DNA of 64,000 nucleotides from Dialister histaminiformans (GCF_900103425.1 NZ_FMXA01000006.1:1-64000); one strand, 5' to 3'; shown: positions 1,497-9,530, numbered from the stretch's first letter. Notes: generated from the sequence alone by a model not told the origin. Translations and numbers: made by a program.

Positions 1497-3005
1497 ATGG
1501 CCAAAAAAACAAAAGCAAACATTGGATTTGAAAAACAGATTTGGGATGCGGCTTGTGTTCTTTGGGGACATATTCCAGCTGCAGAATATAGAAAGGTAAT
1601 TATTGGATTAATCTTCCTTCGATATATTTCGGCTGCTTTTGAAGCTAGGTACAAAGAACTGGTGAATGAAAAGGAAGGGTTTGAAAACGATCCTGATGCT
1701 TATACGGAATATAATATTTTCTTTGTCCCAAAGGAAGCTCGGTGGGAAACTATTTCCGCTGCAGCCCATACACCGGAGATTGGAAAAGTGATTGATGATG
1801 CCATGCGGGCTATCGAAAGCAACAATCACAAACTGAAAAATGTGTTGCCCAAAAATTATGCGTCCCCCGATTTAGATAAGAAAGTTCTGGGAGAGGTAGT
1901 GGATATTTTTACTAACGATATTGATATGTCAGATGCAGAAGCCAGTGAAGATTTACTGGGGCGTACATATGAATACTGCATTGCAAAATTTGCAGAAGAA
2001 GAAGGTGTTGGTGGAGGTGAATTCTATACCCCTTCCAGTATTGTAAAGACCCTTGTGTCTATTCTGAAACCTTTTGCCAATTCCCGCGTTTATGATCCTT
2101 GCTGTGGAAGTGGCGGAATGTTTGTGCAGAGTGAAAAGTTTATCGAAGCACACAGCCATATGCGGGGAGCTATTTCTGTCTATGGTCAGGAAGCTAACCC
2201 AGACACATGGAAGATGGCTCAAATGAATATGGCTATTAGAGGAATTGATGCTAATTTAGGTGCTTATAATGCAGATACTTTTACTAATGACCTCCATCCA
2301 ACGCTGAAAGCAGACTATATTCTGGCCAATCCGCCATTTAACTATCATCCCTGGGGGCAGGAACAATTAAAGGAAGATAAACGGTGGCAATATGGGCTCC
2401 CCCCAAAAGGTAATGCAAACTATGCCTGGATTCAGCATATGATTTCACATTTAGCACCCAATGGCAAAATTGGGCTAGTACTGGCAAACGGGGCGCTCTC
2501 TACCCAAAGCAAAGGAGAAGGGGAAATCCGTAAAAATATCATCAATGCTGATTTAATTGAGGGAATCATTGCCATGCCTACTCAACTTTTCTATAGTGTG
2601 ACCATTCCGGTTACTCTGTGGTTCATTACAAAAAACAAAAAGCAAAAGGGCAAGACATTGTTCATTGATGCCCGAAAAATGGGACATATGGTCGACCGCA
2701 AACACCGGGATTTTACCGATGAAGATATCCAAAAACTGGCTGCTACATTCTCTGCTTTCCAGAATGGGACACTTGAGGATGTGAAAGGTTTCTGTGCTGT
2801 TGCAACGACAGAGGATATTGCAAAGCAGGATTATATCCTGACTCCTGGTCGCTATGTGGGGATTGAAGAAAAGGCAGATGATGGAGAACCTTTCGATGAT
2901 AAAATGAAACGGCTTACCAGTGAACTTTCAGAGATGTTTAAGAAATCCCATGAACTGGAAGAAGAAATCAGAAGGAAACTGGAGGCAATTGGATATGAAA
3001 TTTAA
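1497..3005 (+). CDS. hsdM: Type I restriction-modification DNA methyltransferase subunit HsdM
   Basis: This is the N6-adenine methyltransferase subunit of a type I R-M complex. It binds S-adenosylmethionine and, with HsdS, methylates the bipartite target. The 502 residues hold an N-terminal HsdM helical domain, the SAM-binding motif DPCCGSGGMF at about residue 200 and the catalytic NPPF at 278-281. The length is normal for the family. ATG at 1497 has GAAGG eight bases upstream. The end overlaps the start of hsdS by 11 bases, implying translational coupling. The reading frame is intact and the product should be active. Confidence 0.96.
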   Translation: MAKKTKANIGFEKQIWDAACVLWGHIPAAEYRKVIIGLIFLRYISAAFEARYKELVNEKEGFENDPDAYTEYNIFFVPKEARWETISAAAHTPEIGKVIDDAMRAIESNNHKLKNVLPKNYASPDLDKKVLGEVVDIFTNDIDMSDAEASEDLLGRTYEYCIAKFAEEEGVGGGEFYTPSSIVKTLVSILKPFANSRVYDPCCGSGGMFVQSEKFIEAHSHMRGAISVYGQEANPDTWKMAQMNMAIRGIDANLGAYNADTFTNDLHPTLKADYILANPPFNYHPWGQEQLKEDKRWQYGLPPKGNANYAWIQHMISHLAPNGKIGLVLANGALSTQSKGEGEIRKNIINADLIEGIIAMPTQLFYSVTIPVTLWFITKNKKQKGKTLFIDARKMGHMVDRKHRDFTDEDIQKLAATFSAFQNGTLEDVKGFCAVATTEDIAKQDYILTPGRYVGIEEKADDGEPFDDKMKRLTSELSEMFKKSHELEEEIRRKLEAIGYEI

Positions 3006-4098
3006 ACTTTCAGATATTTGTTCTTATCGGAAAGAAAAGATTGCAGTTTCAGAATTATCTAGGAAAAACTATATTTCTACGGAAAATATGCTTCCAGACA
3101 AAAATGGAATAACTGTTGCTACAGCACTTCCTAAAACAGTTCAAACTCAAAAATATAAAAAAGGAGATATTTTAGTATCCAATATCAGGCCATATTTCAA
3201 AAAAATATGGTTTGCCAAGGGGAATGGTGGATGTTCTAATGATGTGCTTGTCTTTAGTGCCAAAAATGGTATAGATTCACACTTTCTCTATTATCTTCTT
3301 GCCGATGATTCGTTTTTTGAGTACTCAATGGCAACAGCTAAAGGGACGAAAATGCCCAGAGGAGATAAAAAGGCATTGATGAAATATGAAGTGCCTGATT
3401 TTGATTTAAATGAACAGCATAAGATTGTTGGTGTGTTATCAGCTATTGATGGCAAAATTCAGCTAAATAATCAGATAAACAAGAATTTAGAGCAGCAAGC
3501 TCAGGCTATTTTCCAAGAAAGATTTCAGCATCACGATAAACTGCCTGAAAGATGGAAAACGATGACACTTGCCGATGTCTCAATCATGAGTGCAGGTGGC
3601 GATAAGCCAAACACAATCTCCTCCCAGAAAACAAGCGAATATCAATATCCTATCTATTCCAATGGCATTAGCAATGATGGGCTTTATGGTTACTCGTCAG
3701 ACTATAAATTTGATACTGAAAGTGTAACTGTTTCCGCAAGAGGAACTATTGGCTTTGTATGTCTTCGACACATTCCATATACGCCAATTGTACGTCTTGT
3801 GACATTGATTCCTCATACAAACCTCGTATCTGCAAAGTACCTGTATCTATGGCTTAAAAGCATACCGATTCATGGGACGGGTACTACGCAACAACAACTA
3901 ACTGTTCCTGATTTTCGAAAGACAGAAATAATAGTTCCATCAGAATCGGAAATGCGTAGTTTTACAGATACTGTAACGCCCTTTTATCAACAAATATGGG
4001 CCAATCAAGACGAGAGTACCAAACTTGCTGATATTAGAGATTCTCTACTGCCAAAGCTTATGTCCGGCGAGATTGACGTCTCTGATATCGACCTTTAA
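2995..4098 (+). CDS. hsdS: Type I R-M specificity subunit HsdS (currently expressed copy)
   Basis: HsdS sets the DNA target of the complex. The 367-residue protein has the usual layout: first target recognition domain (TRD1), a central conserved helix with INKNLEQQAQAIF, a second TRD, and the C-terminal conserved stretch ending RDSLLPKLMSGEIDV. ATG 2995 is chosen over upstream in-frame starts because GGAGG lies nine bases ahead and the N-terminus then reads MKFKLSDIC, as in the family. Recombination site S1 (3474-3492) falls at INKNL between the halves, and site S2 follows the stop codon. The second half can therefore be replaced or inverted by the recombinase encoded downstream. Confidence 0.94.
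   Translation: MKFKLSDICSYRKEKIAVSELSRKNYISTENMLPDKNGITVATALPKTVQTQKYKKGDILVSNIRPYFKKIWFAKGNGGCSNDVLVFSAKNGIDSHFLYYLLADDSFFEYSMATAKGTKMPRGDKKALMKYEVPDFDLNEQHKIVGVLSAIDGKIQLNNQINKNLEQQAQAIFQERFQHHDKLPERWKTMTLADVSIMSAGGDKPNTISSQKTSEYQYPIYSNGISNDGLYGYSSDYKFDTESVTVSARGTIGFVCLRHIPYTPIVRLVTLIPHTNLVSAKYLYLWLKSIPIHGTGTTQQQLTVPDFRKTEIIVPSESEMRSFTDTVTPFYQQIWANQDESTKLADIRDSLLPKLMSGEIDVSDIDL
3474..3492 (+). repeat. hsdS recombination site S1
   Basis: GATAAACAAGAATTTAGAG lies in the middle of hsdS and encodes the INKNL peptide. An exact 19-bp inverted copy lies at 6330-6348 (S4). The inner ATAAACAAGAATTTA is shared with S2 and S3. Confidence 0.8.
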
Positions 4099-4102
4099 GC
4101 CA

Positions 4103-4122
4103 CATATAAATTCTTGTTTATG
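4103..4122 (-). repeat. hsdS recombination site S2
   Basis: On the minus strand it reads CATAAACAAGAATTTATATG, an exact 20-bp inverted copy of S3 (5655-5674). It starts five bases after the hsdS stop. The C-terminal half of hsdS is thus bounded by S1 and S2 in opposite orientation, the arrangement of an invertible cassette. Confidence 0.8.
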
Positions 4123-4212
4123 TTATAACTCCTACCAACGGCGGGAGTAACAATCTACAGAACTGCCGTTGAAGTCGTTCTCTGGAATAATTATGGAAGG
4201 AGAATTGACACA

Positions 4213-5193
4213 ATGAAAGATATTATCAAGCAAGAAGTTGTGAAACGGTTGTTGCCACTTTTTAATAATGCACAGATAAAGGCGTTGGACCGTACTCTGG
4301 AAATTGTTCTTGGAAAATATATGGAGAGCAAGCCTGATAATGATGAAATTAGCAGTAAGGAGCTGTTGCATAAGTTTCTGGAAGCAAAGAGAATCGAAGG
4401 TTGTTCCGAGAAAACGCTGGTCTACTATCAGAATACGATAAATAGGATGTTTTCGAATATCGGTAAGGATGTGATGCACATTATGACCGAAGATTTAAGA
4501 TCGTATTTGACGGATTACCAAAGGCATAATAATCTCAGCCGGGTAACTATTGATAATGTGCGCCGAATTCTTTCCAGCTTTTTCTCATGGCTTGAGGATG
4601 AGGAATACCTCATAAAAAGCCCAATTCGTAGAATTCATAAAATCAAGACAGTTGTCAGCATCAAGGACACGTATTCTGATGAAGAATTGGAAAGGATGCG
4701 CGACAGCTGCCGGGAAAAACGGGACCTTGCTTTGATTGATATACTTGCATCGACAGGGATGCGTGTTGGAGAATTGGTCTTGTTGAATCGGACAGATATA
4801 GATTTTAATGGTCGGGAGTGCAAGGTGTTTGGTAAAGGCAACAAAGAAAGGATAGTCTATTTTGATGCCCGGACAAAGATTCATTTACAGGAGTATCTTG
4901 AAAACCGAACTGATGATAACGAGGCACTTTTTGTTAGTTTGAAGGCGCCATATTCCCGTCTGACAATCAGCGGAGTGGAATCAAGGGTTAGAAAAATTGG
5001 TAAACGGCTGCATATCGATAAGGTACACCCTCACAAGTTCCGGAGAACCCTTGCTACAAAGGCAATTGATAAAGGTATGCCGATTGAGCAGTTACAGCAA
5101 CTTCTGGGGCATAAACGGATTGATACAACGCTACAATATGCGATGGTGAAACAGAGTAATGTGAAGTTGGCTCATAAAAAATTTATAGGATAG
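4213..5193 (+). CDS. Tyrosine recombinase (candidate hsdS invertase)
   Basis: A 326-residue integrase of the XerC/XerD-like tyrosine recombinase family. An N-terminal SAM-like DNA-binding domain (about 45-135) precedes the catalytic domain with Arg184 in TGMRVGEL, the HxxR box His274-Arg277 in HPHKFRRT, the His in LGHKRIDTT and the nucleophile Tyr in LQYAMV. All catalytic positions are present. AAGGAG lies ten bases before ATG 4213. It sits between the active hsdS and the spare hsdS halves. Recombinases in this position in other type I loci invert hsdS segments (family knowledge). Acting on S1-S4 is an inference. Confidence 0.9.
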   Translation: MKDIIKQEVVKRLLPLFNNAQIKALDRTLEIVLGKYMESKPDNDEISSKELLHKFLEAKRIEGCSEKTLVYYQNTINRMFSNIGKDVMHIMTEDLRSYLTDYQRHNNLSRVTIDNVRRILSSFFSWLEDEEYLIKSPIRRIHKIKTVVSIKDTYSDEELERMRDSCREKRDLALIDILASTGMRVGELVLLNRTDIDFNGRECKVFGKGNKERIVYFDARTKIHLQEYLENRTDDNEALFVSLKAPYSRLTISGVESRVRKIGKRLHIDKVHPHKFRRTLATKAIDKGMPIEQLQQLLGHKRIDTTLQYAMVKQSNVKLAHKKFIG

Positions 5194-5205
5194 AAGGTTA
5201 TAATA

Positions 5206-5682
5206 TTGGGAAAATGGAAGATATGTGAATTAGGAAATCTTATTAAATTTCAGAGAGGGCATGATTTGCCTAAAAGCAAAATGGTGGCTGGAAAATATCC
5301 AGTAGTTGGATCTAATGGAATTATAGGTTGGCATAATGAATATACAACGGAAGCTCCATCTATCACTGTAGGCAGAAGTGGGAATGTAGGTAATCCTTTT
5401 ATTTATTATGGTAGATCTTGGTCACATAACACTACTTTATATATCAAAGAATACAAAAATACAGATCCAGTATTTATTTATTATTTTCTGAAGACCCTAA
5501 ATTTAAGCAATTATGCTGGTGGTAGTGCTGTTCCTACATTAAATCGTAACCATATTCATACTTTAAAAGTTTCAGTGCCAGAAACAATTGAAGAACAACA
5601 TAATATTGGAATGTTCCTTAAACTATTTGATGATAAAATTCAGCAAAATATACGCATAAACAAGAATTTATATGCGGATTAG
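5206..5682 (+). CDS. Half-length HsdS (single TRD), invertible partner
   Basis: The frame encodes one target recognition domain related to HsdS halves (conserved GRSGNVG and the VP...EEQHNIG linker) and the start of the central helix, IRINKNL. It then ends after YAD. A TTG start at 5206 has AGAAGG eight bases ahead, so it could be translated from the recombinase message. Site S3 covers the INKNL codons. Inverting the segment between S3 and S4 would fuse this half in frame to the C-terminal half on the minus strand and restore a complete HsdS of other specificity. In the present orientation it may be silent, or yield a half-subunit. Confidence 0.8.
   Translation: MGKWKICELGNLIKFQRGHDLPKSKMVAGKYPVVGSNGIIGWHNEYTTEAPSITVGRSGNVGNPFIYYGRSWSHNTTLYIKEYKNTDPVFIYYFLKTLNLSNYAGGSAVPTLNRNHIHTLKVSVPETIEEQHNIGMFLKLFDDKIQQNIRINKNLYAD
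5655..5674 (+). repeat. hsdS recombination site S3
   Basis: CATAAACAAGAATTTATATG, an exact inverted match of S2 at 4103-4122. The similarity to the S2 flank continues beyond the core, since both sides then run into the antisense end of an hsdS C-terminal half. Confidence 0.8.
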
Positions 5683-6371
5683 AAGTCGATGCTAGAGACA
5701 TCGATCTCGCCGGACATGAGTTTCGGAAGTAAAGCATCGCGAATACCAGAAAGTCTTCTGTTTTCTGCTTCAAGCATAGCTTGCTGTTCAAAAAGCGGTT
5801 TACAGAATTCGCTAAACATACGCAGAGTTTCATTATCAGGGATTACGGCAGGAACAGATTTCATGCCTGAGCCAGAAATCTCCTTGAATGTAGATCCTGA
5901 AGCCATCCCCTCAATGGTTGGCAAGGCTTGCTTAAGGAAGAAATACATAAAAGCAGTACCGACATTAGTATTGGGAATGACTGATTTGAAACCCTGATTA
6001 GTCGTTACGACGTTTGATGCAATGGCTATGTATCCAATTGGTGCTCTTGAGCTGAACAGCACAGTTCCTTCCGGCATTTTCGTCGCACTGCTATTTGAAA
6101 AGCCAATGTCAGAAATATCATTCTCACCATGCGAGATGAACTTTGACTTATCAACAGATAGATCCTTTGGTGTAATCCACGGAATTCCATGCTCAGAATA
6201 GTATTCTGGATGTTTCTTGGAGGGAGTTCCTCCACCAACCACAGTACCGAGATCAGAAAGAGTTCCCTGCGGCCAAGCGGGATCGGCATTTGCAATAAAT
6301 CGGTCAAGGAAATAGGCCTGCGCTTGGTCCTCTAAATTCTTGTTTATCTTCCGTAAAACAATAAATTCCAA
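5679..6371 (-). pseudogene. Inverted C-terminal half of hsdS (silent cassette)
   Basis: On the minus strand the frame reads INKNLEDQAQAYFLDRF, a TRD, then RDALLPKLMSGEIDVSSIDF. This is the layout of the second half of HsdS, with a TRD different from that of the active gene. The apparent start is a TTG with no ribosome binding site, so it is not expected to be expressed alone. Site S4 lies at the INKNL codons. Its stop overlaps the stop of the half gene at 5206-5682 by four bases, tail to tail. Inversion S1-S4 would place it behind the active TRD1, and inversion S3-S4 behind the spare half. Confidence 0.85.
6330..6348 (-). repeat. hsdS recombination site S4
   Basis: The minus strand reads GATAAACAAGAATTTAGAG, identical to S1 (3474-3492) over 19 bp. 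Beyond the identical core the two stay similar, because both encode the central HsdS helix. Confidence 0.8.
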
Positions 6372-6392
6372 TATATAAAGGAGTTGAAATAT

Positions 6393-9300
6393 ATGTCAGA
6401 TTCCTACAAGGAAGCGGACTATGAAAATACTATTATAGAACTGTTTCAAAATATGGGATACCAATATGTATATGGACCAGATGTGGAGCGGAATTATAAG
6501 GACCCTTTTTATGAAATAGATTTGGAGGATTCTATACGCCGAATTAATCCCCGTATGCCGGCAAGTGCCATTCATGAAGCACTTTTCAAACTGAAAAACT
6601 TTGAGAATGCTCATCTGGTGCAGAAAAATGCCCTCTTTATGAGCTATATCCAGAATGGGATAGAAGTTCGGTACTTACAGAATGGTGAAGAACGTTCTGG
6701 TTTGGTCTATCTGGTAGATTATAAAAATCCTGACAACAACTCCTTTGTTATTGCAAACCAATGGACCTTTATTGAAAACAGTGAAAAACGGCCGGATGTA
6801 TTGCTGTTTTTAAACGGGATGCCCATTGTGCTAATGGAATTAAAATCCCCATCTCGGGAAGAAACGGACGCATCGGAAGCTTATCGACAGATTCGGAATT
6901 ACATGCATGAAATTCCTTCTATGTTTATTTATAACTGTATCTGTGTCATGAGCGATCATCTGACTTCAAAGGCTGGGACGATTACATCCGGAGAAGACCG
7001 GTTCATGGAATGGAAAACCAAAGATGGCAGTTATGAAAATACCCAGTATGCCCAGTTTGACACGTTCTTTGAAGGAATTTTTGATAAGAAGAGATTACTC
7101 GATATTATTAAGAACTTTATCTGTTTCTCCAATGAAGGGGTAAAACAATTTAAAATTCTGGTGGGATACCATCAGTATTTTGCTGTTCGTAAAGCCATTG
7201 AGTCAACGAAAAAAGGGGTGGCTACCGATGGTAAAGGGGGCGTTTTCTGGCATACTCAAGGCAGCGGTAAATCCCTTTCCATGGTATTTTATGCGCACTT
7301 ACTGCAGGAAGCTCTGAATTCGCCTACCATCGTTGTGATTACGGATAGAAATGACTTGGATGATCAACTATATGGACAATTTGTAAAATGTAAAGAGTTC
7401 CTCAGGCAGAACCCGATCCATGCAGAAAGTCGAAAAAATTTAAGGGAATTACTGGAAGGTAGAAAAGCTAATGGTATTATTTTCACGACCATGCAAAAGT
7501 TTGAGGAATCTAATGAACCTCTCTCAGAACGGCATAATATCATTGTTATGGCAGATGAGGCGCATCGGAGTCAGTATGGTCTGAAAGAGAAAATTAATTC
7601 CAAAACAGGTGAAATTAAAATAGGCTCCGCCAGAGTTATACGTAATAGCCTGCCCCATGCAACTTATATTGGGTTTACGGGGACACCTATTGCGTTAAAA
7701 GATCGGAATACACGGGAAGTTTTTGGGGATTATATTGATATTTATGATATGACCCAGGCAGTAGAAGATGGAGCAACAAGGCCTGTTTATTATGAAAGCC
7801 GGGTTATCAAATTAAAGCTGGACAAGAAAACTCTTGCTTTGATTGATAAAGAATATGACCTGATGGCTTCCAATGCCGATCCGTTTGTTATTGAACAGAG
7901 TAAAAAAGAATTAGGGCAAATGGAAGCTATCCTGGGGAATGACAAAACTATTGATTCTCTGGTTAAAGATATTCTGGATCATTACGAACATAATCGAGAA
8001 CATTTATTAACCGGAAAAGCTATGATTGTAGCCTATTCCCGGCCTATTGCCATGAAGATCTATCATAGGATTCTGGAATTACGTCCTGATTGGAATGAAA
8101 AAGTGAAAGTTGTTATGACAGGCTCCAACAAAGATCCGGAAGAATGGGCTAAAATTATCGGGAATAAATATCATAAAGACGAATTGGCGAAAGAATTCAA
8201 AGACAATGACAGCCCATTTAAAATTGCTATTGTAGTTGATATGTGGCTCACTGGCTTTGACGTTCCATCTCTGGCAACTATGTATATTTATAAACCCATG
8301 AGAGGATACAATTTAATGCAGGCTATCGCCCGGGTAAATCGGGTGTTCCGGGATAAAGAGGGCGGCCTTATTGTTGATTATGTAGGGATTGCTTCAGCTT
8401 TGAAAGAAGCCATGAACGATTATACCGCCAGGGATAAAAAGAACTATGGGAATATGGATATTGCCAAGGCTGCATATCCTAAATTCCAGGAAAAATTGTC
8501 TATTTGCCAGGATCTTTTCTACGGTTATGATTACTCTGATTTTCTGCATGGAAGTAATCTGGAACGCTCCAAAGCCATTAGCGGTGCGGTGAACTTTATT
8601 GTTGGTGTTAGTAAAAAAGATGAGAGAGAAAACTTCCTGAAAGAAGCCCTTTTGCTGAAGCAGTCGTTATCTCTGTGTTCTTCTCTTGCAACAGAAGATG
8701 AACGGATTGAAGCGGCTTTCTTTGAATCTGTACGCGTATTGGTTGGGCGATTGATGAACCAAGGTAGAGGAAAGAAAATTTCACTGCCTGAAATGAATGC
8801 TCGGATTAATGAGCTTTTGAAAGCCAGTATTAAGAGTGAAGGGGTACTGAATCTTTTCCAGGGAGCAGGGGAAGACTTTTCGTTGTTCGATCCAAAATTT
8901 CTGGCCGAAATTGCCAAGATGAAAGAAAAAAACCTGGCGGTAGAACTACTGAAGAAACTTATTGCCGATCAGGTAAGCGTTTATAGAAGAACTAATGTGG
9001 TTAGGTCAAAAAAATTCAGTGAGATGATGCAGCAGGCGATGAATCGGTATTTGAATGGCATGTTGACCAATGAGCAGGTAATTGAAGAACTGTTGCAAAT
9101 GGCCAAACAAATTCAAACCGCACGAAAAGAAGGGGAAAAACTCGGATTAACATCAGATGAATCAGCCTTTTATGATGCTTTGACAAAACCAAGAGCGATT
9201 AAAGATTTTTATCAAAACAATGAACTGATTGCTATGACAAAAGAGTTAACAGATGCATTACGTAGAAATCGCACGGTTGATTGGCAGAAAAGAGACAGTG

Positions 9301-9530
9301 CCAGAGCCAAAATGCGTATGATGATTAAGAGACTCCTAAAAAAGCATAAGTACCCACCGGAAGGAATGGGGGATGCTGTACAGACAGTTATGACTCAGTG
9401 CGAGTTATGGGCAGATAACAATGATATGGAAGATAGATCTTCTAATGCTTCTTATTGGAGAAAAGCTTATGCAGATGAATACTGTGAGGTAAACAAAGCA
9501 GCAGAACCCGGTATTGAATATAATACATAA
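6393..9530 (+). CDS. hsdR: Type I R-M restriction and translocation subunit HsdR
   Basis: The motor and nuclease subunit, which translocates DNA using ATP and cleaves it away from the target. The 1045 residues contain the N-terminal PD-ExK nuclease (Asp135 in RPDVLLF, Glu149-Leu-Lys151), Walker A GSGKS at 290-294, DEAH at 388-391, the GFTGTP motif, and helicase motif VI QAIARVNRVFRD. ATG 6393 is preferred because AAGGAG at 6378-6383 lies nine bases ahead. An in-frame TTG at 6384 abuts the ribosome binding site. The frame is complete, so the locus should restrict. It lies beyond the spare hsdS halves, outside the invertible part. Confidence 0.96.
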   Translation: MSDSYKEADYENTIIELFQNMGYQYVYGPDVERNYKDPFYEIDLEDSIRRINPRMPASAIHEALFKLKNFENAHLVQKNALFMSYIQNGIEVRYLQNGEERSGLVYLVDYKNPDNNSFVIANQWTFIENSEKRPDVLLFLNGMPIVLMELKSPSREETDASEAYRQIRNYMHEIPSMFIYNCICVMSDHLTSKAGTITSGEDRFMEWKTKDGSYENTQYAQFDTFFEGIFDKKRLLDIIKNFICFSNEGVKQFKILVGYHQYFAVRKAIESTKKGVATDGKGGVFWHTQGSGKSLSMVFYAHLLQEALNSPTIVVITDRNDLDDQLYGQFVKCKEFLRQNPIHAESRKNLRELLEGRKANGIIFTTMQKFEESNEPLSERHNIIVMADEAHRSQYGLKEKINSKTGEIKIGSARVIRNSLPHATYIGFTGTPIALKDRNTREVFGDYIDIYDMTQAVEDGATRPVYYESRVIKLKLDKKTLALIDKEYDLMASNADPFVIEQSKKELGQMEAILGNDKTIDSLVKDILDHYEHNREHLLTGKAMIVAYSRPIAMKIYHRILELRPDWNEKVKVVMTGSNKDPEEWAKIIGNKYHKDELAKEFKDNDSPFKIAIVVDMWLTGFDVPSLATMYIYKPMRGYNLMQAIARVNRVFRDKEGGLIVDYVGIASALKEAMNDYTARDKKNYGNMDIAKAAYPKFQEKLSICQDLFYGYDYSDFLHGSNLERSKAISGAVNFIVGVSKKDERENFLKEALLLKQSLSLCSSLATEDERIEAAFFESVRVLVGRLMNQGRGKKISLPEMNARINELLKASIKSEGVLNLFQGAGEDFSLFDPKFLAEIAKMKEKNLAVELLKKLIADQVSVYRRTNVVRSKKFSEMMQQAMNRYLNGMLTNEQVIEELLQMAKQIQTARKEGEKLGLTSDESAFYDALTKPRAIKDFYQNNELIAMTKELTDALRRNRTVDWQKRDSARAKMRMMIKRLLKKHKYPPEGMGDAVQTVMTQCELWADNNDMEDRSSNASYWRKAYADEYCEVNKAAEPGIEYNT

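Follow-up and report, generated by a model that had tools for sequence, protein, structure and literature searches.

The first 64,000 nucleotides of a Dialister histaminiformans contig (GCF_900103425.1 NZ_FMXA01000006.1:1-64000; this whole stretch is hereafter called the window) carry, at positions 1497-9530, a type I restriction-modification operon with the gene order hsdM-hsdS-int-hsdS'-hsdR, which most probably acts as a switch of target specificity driven by its own recombinase. The operon opens with hsdM (1497-3005, + strand), the DNA methyltransferase subunit of 502 amino acids (Pfam N6_Mtase, 4e-110; HsdM_N, 1e-24), and closes with hsdR (6384-9530, + strand; start TTG at 6384 or ATG at 6393), the restriction subunit (TIGR00348, 1e-181; T1RH-like_C, 1e-97). 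Between them, the first hsdS begins with a fixed N-terminal half, N1 (2995-3489, + strand), whose ATG overlaps the end of hsdM; it is recognized by a Methylase_S match, its open frame and the fusions it forms. N1 is presently joined to the C-terminal half C1 (3475-4098, + strand; Methylase_S match, fusions, and a match in a Hornefia locus, L006), so that N1-C1 (2995-4098, 367 amino acids) is a complete hsdS. The N-terminal half of the second hsdS, N2 (5206-5682, + strand; Methylase_S, 4e-17, and conserved start spacing), has its own predicted start, a TTG located 12 nt past the int stop codon, and is presently truncated at 158 amino acids, ending in INKNLYAD. The C-terminal half that follows, C2 (5679-6347, - strand; Methylase_S, 6e-18, and a match in the same Hornefia locus), is inverted and silent in the present arrangement. 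Matches to the structures 1yf2, 1ydx and 3okg indicate the HsdS fold and place the INKNL motif in the central conserved region.

The window thus contains exactly one complete hsdS, a truncated N2, and an int gene oriented as hsdM. The product of int (4213-5193, + strand), 326 amino acids long, is an XerA-like, site-specific tyrosine recombinase (NCBIfam NF040815, 2e-72, above the cut-off; Pfam Phage_integrase, 7e-34); these profile matches bear out the initial annotation of the window, which had placed such an enzyme between the two C-terminal halves. Its residues R184, K208, H274, R277, H300 and Y309, which correspond to the catalytic ones of the tyrosine recombinase family, are invariant in an alignment of 12 diverse relatives.

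Both C-terminal halves are bounded by exact copies of a single 15-mer, ATAAACAAGAATTTA, which occurs exactly four times in the window, against a chance expectation of 0.25 even when two mismatches are allowed. The first copy, S1 (3475-3489, +), holds the 3' end of N1 at the INKNL codons; S2 (4107-4121, -) lies 8 nt past the stop codon of C1 and 91 nt upstream of int; S3 (5656-5670, +) is at the end of N2; and S4 (6333-6347, -) is at the 5' end of the inverted C2, upstream of hsdR. When up to one mismatch was allowed, the 1.70-Mb genome contained no copy beyond these four. In S1, the arms TAAA (3476-3479) and TTTA (3486-3489) enclose the 6-bp spacer CAAGAA (3480-3485). Inverted arms around a 6-bp spacer are the usual form of the tyrosine-recombinase core (XerCD/Cre family).

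The common core had been noted in the initial annotation, together with exact inverted copies of 19 bp for S1 and S4 (3474-3492 and 6330-6348) and of 20 bp for S2 and S3 (4103-4122 and 5655-5674), and both were recovered on re-reading and in a repeat-pair search. The further claim of two nested site pairs does not hold: there is one type of site, and the additional matches come from the homologous ends of the cassettes. The ends of C1 and C2, compared in antiparallel orientation, are alike at 81% over 53 nt and 100 nt. S1 and S4 appear to pair because both bear the 5' end of a C-half on one side, hereafter the head, while S2 and S3 appear to pair because both bear a 3' end there. Since the extra bases are the ends of two antiparallel C-halves, the apparent pairing depends on the present arrangement, and two site classes of 19 and 20 bp were therefore rejected. 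Each site has a fixed tail and an exchangeable head: the tail of S1 is the end of N1, that of S2 the region just upstream of int, that of S3 the end of N2 and that of S4 the side towards hsdR, and the heads are both ends of each C cassette.

The reading frames agree with such an exchange. Either N-half reads in frame through either C-half (367, 382, 357 and 372 amino acids), as had been proposed for fusions at the INKNL codons, whereas an N-half facing the inverted end of either cassette meets a stop three codons past INKNL (168 or 158 amino acids). In our opinion, the locus is a four-state specificity switch, in which a recombinase exchanges C-halves between two hsdS genes; we put the probability of this reading at about 0.91. 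What is read directly from the DNA comprises the anatomy, the frames, the uniqueness and conservation of the sites, swapped states in relatives and the positions of contig ends. According to the proposed mechanism, the mobile cassettes C1 and C2 would be shared by N1, fixed behind hsdM, and N2, fixed behind int; an inverted pair of TAAA-N6-TTTA sites bounds each cassette. The recombinase encoded in the locus would trade what lies on the head side of each site and thereby interconvert the arrangements N1-C1, N1-C2, N2-C1 and N2-C2, and we infer that the exchanges would be coordinated in pairs. As the cassettes would remain antiparallel, one N-half would read through a full C-half to give a complete HsdS, while the remaining one would meet an inverted cassette and end three codons past INKNL. 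Each state would hand HsdM and HsdR another two-part target, so that both the methylation pattern and restriction would change.

The closest known system is SsuCC20p of Streptococcus suis, which consists of hsdM, four target recognition domains (TRDs), a tyrosine recombinase between two hsdS genes, and hsdR; its C-terminal TRDs are flanked on both sides by the 14-bp repeat TAAATCATCATTTA, which has the form TAAA-N6-TTTA (PMC10790761). There, four alleles are formed, of which two follow hsdM and the other two the recombinase gene; no switching occurs without xerD; the hsdS behind xerD is expressed and methylating; and each genome has a single complete hsdS (PMC10790761). Its authors left the mechanism open between two concurrent inversions and place-switching, and found the system only in streptococci (PMC10790761). 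The locus in the window resembles SsuCC20p in gene layout, in the bounding of both C cassettes by one inverted TAAA-N6-TTTA repeat and in having one complete hsdS. It differs in the host, the TRDs and the spacer (CAAGAA versus TCATCA), in the absence of two extra hypothetical genes, and in its location on a contig beside an rRNA operon rather than in a prophage; moreover, activity is demonstrated for SsuCC20p, whereas the present locus is known from its sequence. By analogy with that sister system, switching here would depend on the recombinase, the second hsdS would be expressed when complete, and the states would have distinct methylomes. Loci of Lactococcus and Enterococcus faecium have the same core as S. 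suis, and their recombinases are 59% identical to that of the window.

With regard to the rRNA genes, the start of the contig (window 1-416), read by eye, is apparently the 3' end of a 23S rRNA gene followed by a 5S rRNA gene. These genes are followed after about 1 kb by the restriction operon, and a partial 5S-like repeat is found at 998-1021.

Searches with the recombinase retrieved 80 loci in bacterial genomes (63-85% identity), 13 plasmids and 32-40 IMG/VR contigs. The hosts include Clostridia, Bacilli (Listeria, Streptococcus, Enterococcus, Lactococcus and Ligilactobacillus), Negativicutes, Spirochaetia, gammaproteobacteria, Gastranaerophilales and others; no match was found in an Escherichia coli collection searched with a gammaproteobacterial relative. 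Among 61 loci picked by recombinase similarity alone and having at least 2.6 kb of flank on each side, 55 have four identical cores in the order + - [int] + -. This agrees with the earlier proposal, and with SsuCC20p, that each C-half is bounded by two opposed sites. Conservation shared by all four sites (71-72 loci per site) is strong only for TAAA and TTTA around six variable bases. At least 14 different spacers occur across loci (e.g., CAAGAA, CGATAA, CAATAA, TGATAA and TCATCA), each locus having a single one; the sites past stop codons, which are free of coding constraint, still match the coding ones. In nearly all loci, the frames of both N-halves are open, complete or truncated; since this holds whether they are used or not, the truncated half is not decaying. 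The predicted start of N2 lies within 20 nt of the int stop codon, or overlaps it, in 89 of 94 loci, a spacing that suits, and may reflect, expression from the same transcript as int. For the relatives that lack a TAAA-N6-TTTA group, which are mostly below 63% identity or have short flanks, a de novo repeat search gave no clear site of another type.

Several loci depart from this layout. L018 and L019 have six sites each (in L019 at 2895+, 3565-, 5167+, 5839-, 7441+ and 8113-), with a third N-half and bounded cassette that make up an expanded switch. The Latilactobacillus sakei plasmid pRV500 (L097) has two sites, with N1 and N2 facing each other across a single cassette, whose flip decides which hsdS is complete. 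L083 is the same locus rearranged on a larger scale: its hsdM is inverted, and its hsdR sits between the two pairs of sites. Two Gastranaerophilales contigs of about 3.2 kb (L037 and L056) span exactly from site to site; there, hsdM and int are divergent and int abuts a site, which is another arrangement.

A census of states was taken over the 73 loci in which hsdM and int are co-oriented, or 79 with the int-inverted loci included. Among the 73, a complete hsdS is present solely in first position in 34 loci and solely in second position in 35; in one locus both genes are complete, and in three neither is. The initial annotation had treated the downstream hsdS' as secondary, yet roughly one relative in two has it as its sole complete hsdS. 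Antiparallel cassettes occur in 75 of 79 loci (68 of 72 after deduplication; p = 5e-16 versus random orientation), and therefore one hsdS is complete. The one-complete rule is strong, not absolute, and the system acts like a single exclusive selector with four positions, not like a set of independent on/off switches. The same architecture and one-at-a-time rule are common to many unrelated gut bacteria, across phyla.

Signs of exchange were found between closely related loci. The Lactococcus plasmids pJM2A and pUC073A are more than 99.8% identical to pUCCL627F outside the cassettes, and the cassettes themselves are 100% identical, with their places exchanged. In pJM1A, N2 is complete and C1 is present twice; both cassettes of this locus (L095) have the same sequence (100%), which is either a duplication or a chimera assembled from a mixed population. 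Three pairs of loci with at least 99.7% identical recombinases differ in state: a cassette has changed from L+ to R- between L073 and L075 and from L+ to R+ between L047 and L086, and has flipped in place between L048 and L063; in each pair, the remaining cassette differs too. Another candidate pair, L101 and L133, with matching cassette lengths and different states, was dropped as a same-species pair, because its recombinases are only 78% identical.

Exchange also extends beyond close relatives. Between the window and Hornefia L006, int is 74% identical at the nucleotide level, while C1 is 96% and C2 80% identical, with their places exchanged: C1 corresponds to the inverted cassette of L006 (95% amino acid identity) and C2 to the C-half joined to N1 there (87%). 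Elsewhere, too, loci with recombinases 70-75% alike have cassettes that are 85-97% alike. Because the cassettes are more alike than the recombinases, they move between lineages as modules. In addition, of the 36 contig ends inside loci, 8 fall within 0-4 bp of a site's edge on the head side, where a rough count gives well under one by chance; the eight come from five assemblies, including isolates of Roseburia and Anaerovibrio. Such breaks are the expected outcome of assembly when several arrangements coexist, with tails fixed and heads diverging. Recombinase-driven shuffling of hsdS, which the initial annotation had drawn from other species, is thus supported both by these comparative data and by the experimentally proven SsuCC20p.

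Several points weigh against the four-state switch. The one-complete rule is broken by L025 (both genes complete) and by L045, L091 and L101 (neither), and int is inverted in 6 of 79 loci, all six of which have antiparallel cassettes. The spacer is equal at both ends of 135 of 136 cassettes, versus about 21 expected from spacer frequencies, but this figure is partly built in, as sites were grouped by identical 13-mers; the statement independent of that grouping is the layout count of 55 of 61. The likeness to SsuCC20p is one of layout and repeat. Finally, the copy in the window is probably active, a judgement drawn from its sequence.

Other shuffling systems are less similar. SpnIII/cod of Streptococcus pneumoniae (PsrA/CreX) also has its own tyrosine recombinase, which shuffles hsdS halves at short inverted repeats, but it uses three repeat classes (15, 85 and about 300 bp; core ATTATGGGAA), keeps the other hsdS copies silent and exchanges both TRDs (PMC4948785, PMC6620402, PMC7096588). 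Its second hsdS is inverted and silent (PMC6620402). The present locus was not assigned to this type: it has a single core class of another sequence, and N2 is co-oriented with the operon. The pneumococcal tvr locus SpnIV (TvrR) shares recombinase-driven shuffling and hsdS genes on both sides of the recombinase, but has direct repeats (MPR/TER), works by excision and reintegration of a circle, and includes toxin-antitoxin-like regulators (tvrAT) (PMC6265443). The tvr type was likewise rejected, since the sites in the window alternate + - + - and no genes lie between S2 and int. The hsd locus of Listeria monocytogenes CC8/CC4 similarly yields four specificities by means of a recombinase and inverted repeats, but with two different repeat pairs, an oppositely oriented hsdS pair and a silent second hsdS (PMC4783014, PMC7662400). 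In Lactobacillus reuteri, LreRMII has hsdS-recombinase-hsdS between hsdR and hsdM, and its TRDs are rearranged between clones (PMC6122466). In a REBASE survey, inverting type I loci had to have perfect repeats of 20 bp or more (PMC7394358), a length that the 14-15-bp core by itself does not reach.

The tail and head scheme constrains the mechanism of switching. With int in place, only double exchanges connect the four exclusive states, and every single exchange inverts int, excises a circle, or leaves two complete genes or no complete gene. As these single-exchange outcomes are rare, either double exchange is coordinated, or excision is followed by reintegration, or intermediates are selected against. 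The rare exceptions show that intermediates can exist. The S. suis data, in which no intermediates appeared in long reads (PMC10790761), favour coordination. We tentatively suggest that the cross-phylum family may carry out a coordinated four-site double exchange, which would avoid both zero and two HsdS, and that its cassettes may also travel between genera as modules.

Alternatively, single exchanges could occur freely, with selection purging cells that have zero or two HsdS. The rare parallel and int-inverted states are what free single exchange would yield, and all N-halves and C-halves are intact, used or not. Yet the int-inverted loci, which always have one complete hsdS, are rare too (6/79), and such intermediates are missing from S. 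suis reads and PCR, where selection had little time to act (PMC10790761); we consider this explanation rather unlikely. Also unlikely, and slightly more so, is tvr-like excision of a circle (int-N2-cassette) and its reintegration at another site, which would move cassettes between N1 and N2. Direct repeats are present (S1/S3 and S2/S4), the pneumococcal tvr locus works in this way (PMC6265443), and the route would lead from the first-hsdS to the second-hsdS state in two steps, never with both or neither complete; it could also account for the doubled C1 of pJM1A. A circle alone cannot give the pure swap between pJM2A and pUCCL627F, for which exchange between inverted sites is needed.

Independent flips (S1xS2, S3xS4), which would make each hsdS a separate on/off switch, are permitted by the geometry, and the rare parallel states of L045, L091, L101 and L025 exist. 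The initial annotation had foreseen such single-cassette products, with S3xS4 giving two complete hsdS genes and S1xS2 switching hsdS off. However, independent flips predict that half of the loci have both or neither complete, and such products are almost absent (4/73); no such state was found in S. suis long reads or genomes (PMC10790761). In L025, moreover, the two cassettes have the same sequence (100%) in a metagenome assembly, a duplication or possibly an assembly chimera. Independent flips are therefore very doubtful. Decay of the window locus into an inactive remnant, which would fit with its activity being deduced indirectly, is scarcely credible, given that the sites, the two N-halves, the two C-halves and the catalytic residues are all intact and that the cassettes are exchanged relative to Hornefia L006.

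Systems of this kind are already known from SsuCC20p; the cross-phylum survey and the generalization are added here. The survey widens the SsuCC20p architecture and its one-at-a-time rule to Clostridia, Bacilli, Negativicutes, Spirochaetia, Gammaproteobacteria and others. It brings the site down to TAAA-N6-TTTA with a range of naturally occurring spacers, and lists rare exceptions as well as sister loci on harmless dairy plasmids. With the reduced site, the exceptions and the plasmid loci at hand, coordinated exchange, circle excision and selection become directly testable. The spacer variants, in turn, may serve as mutually incompatible recombination sites.

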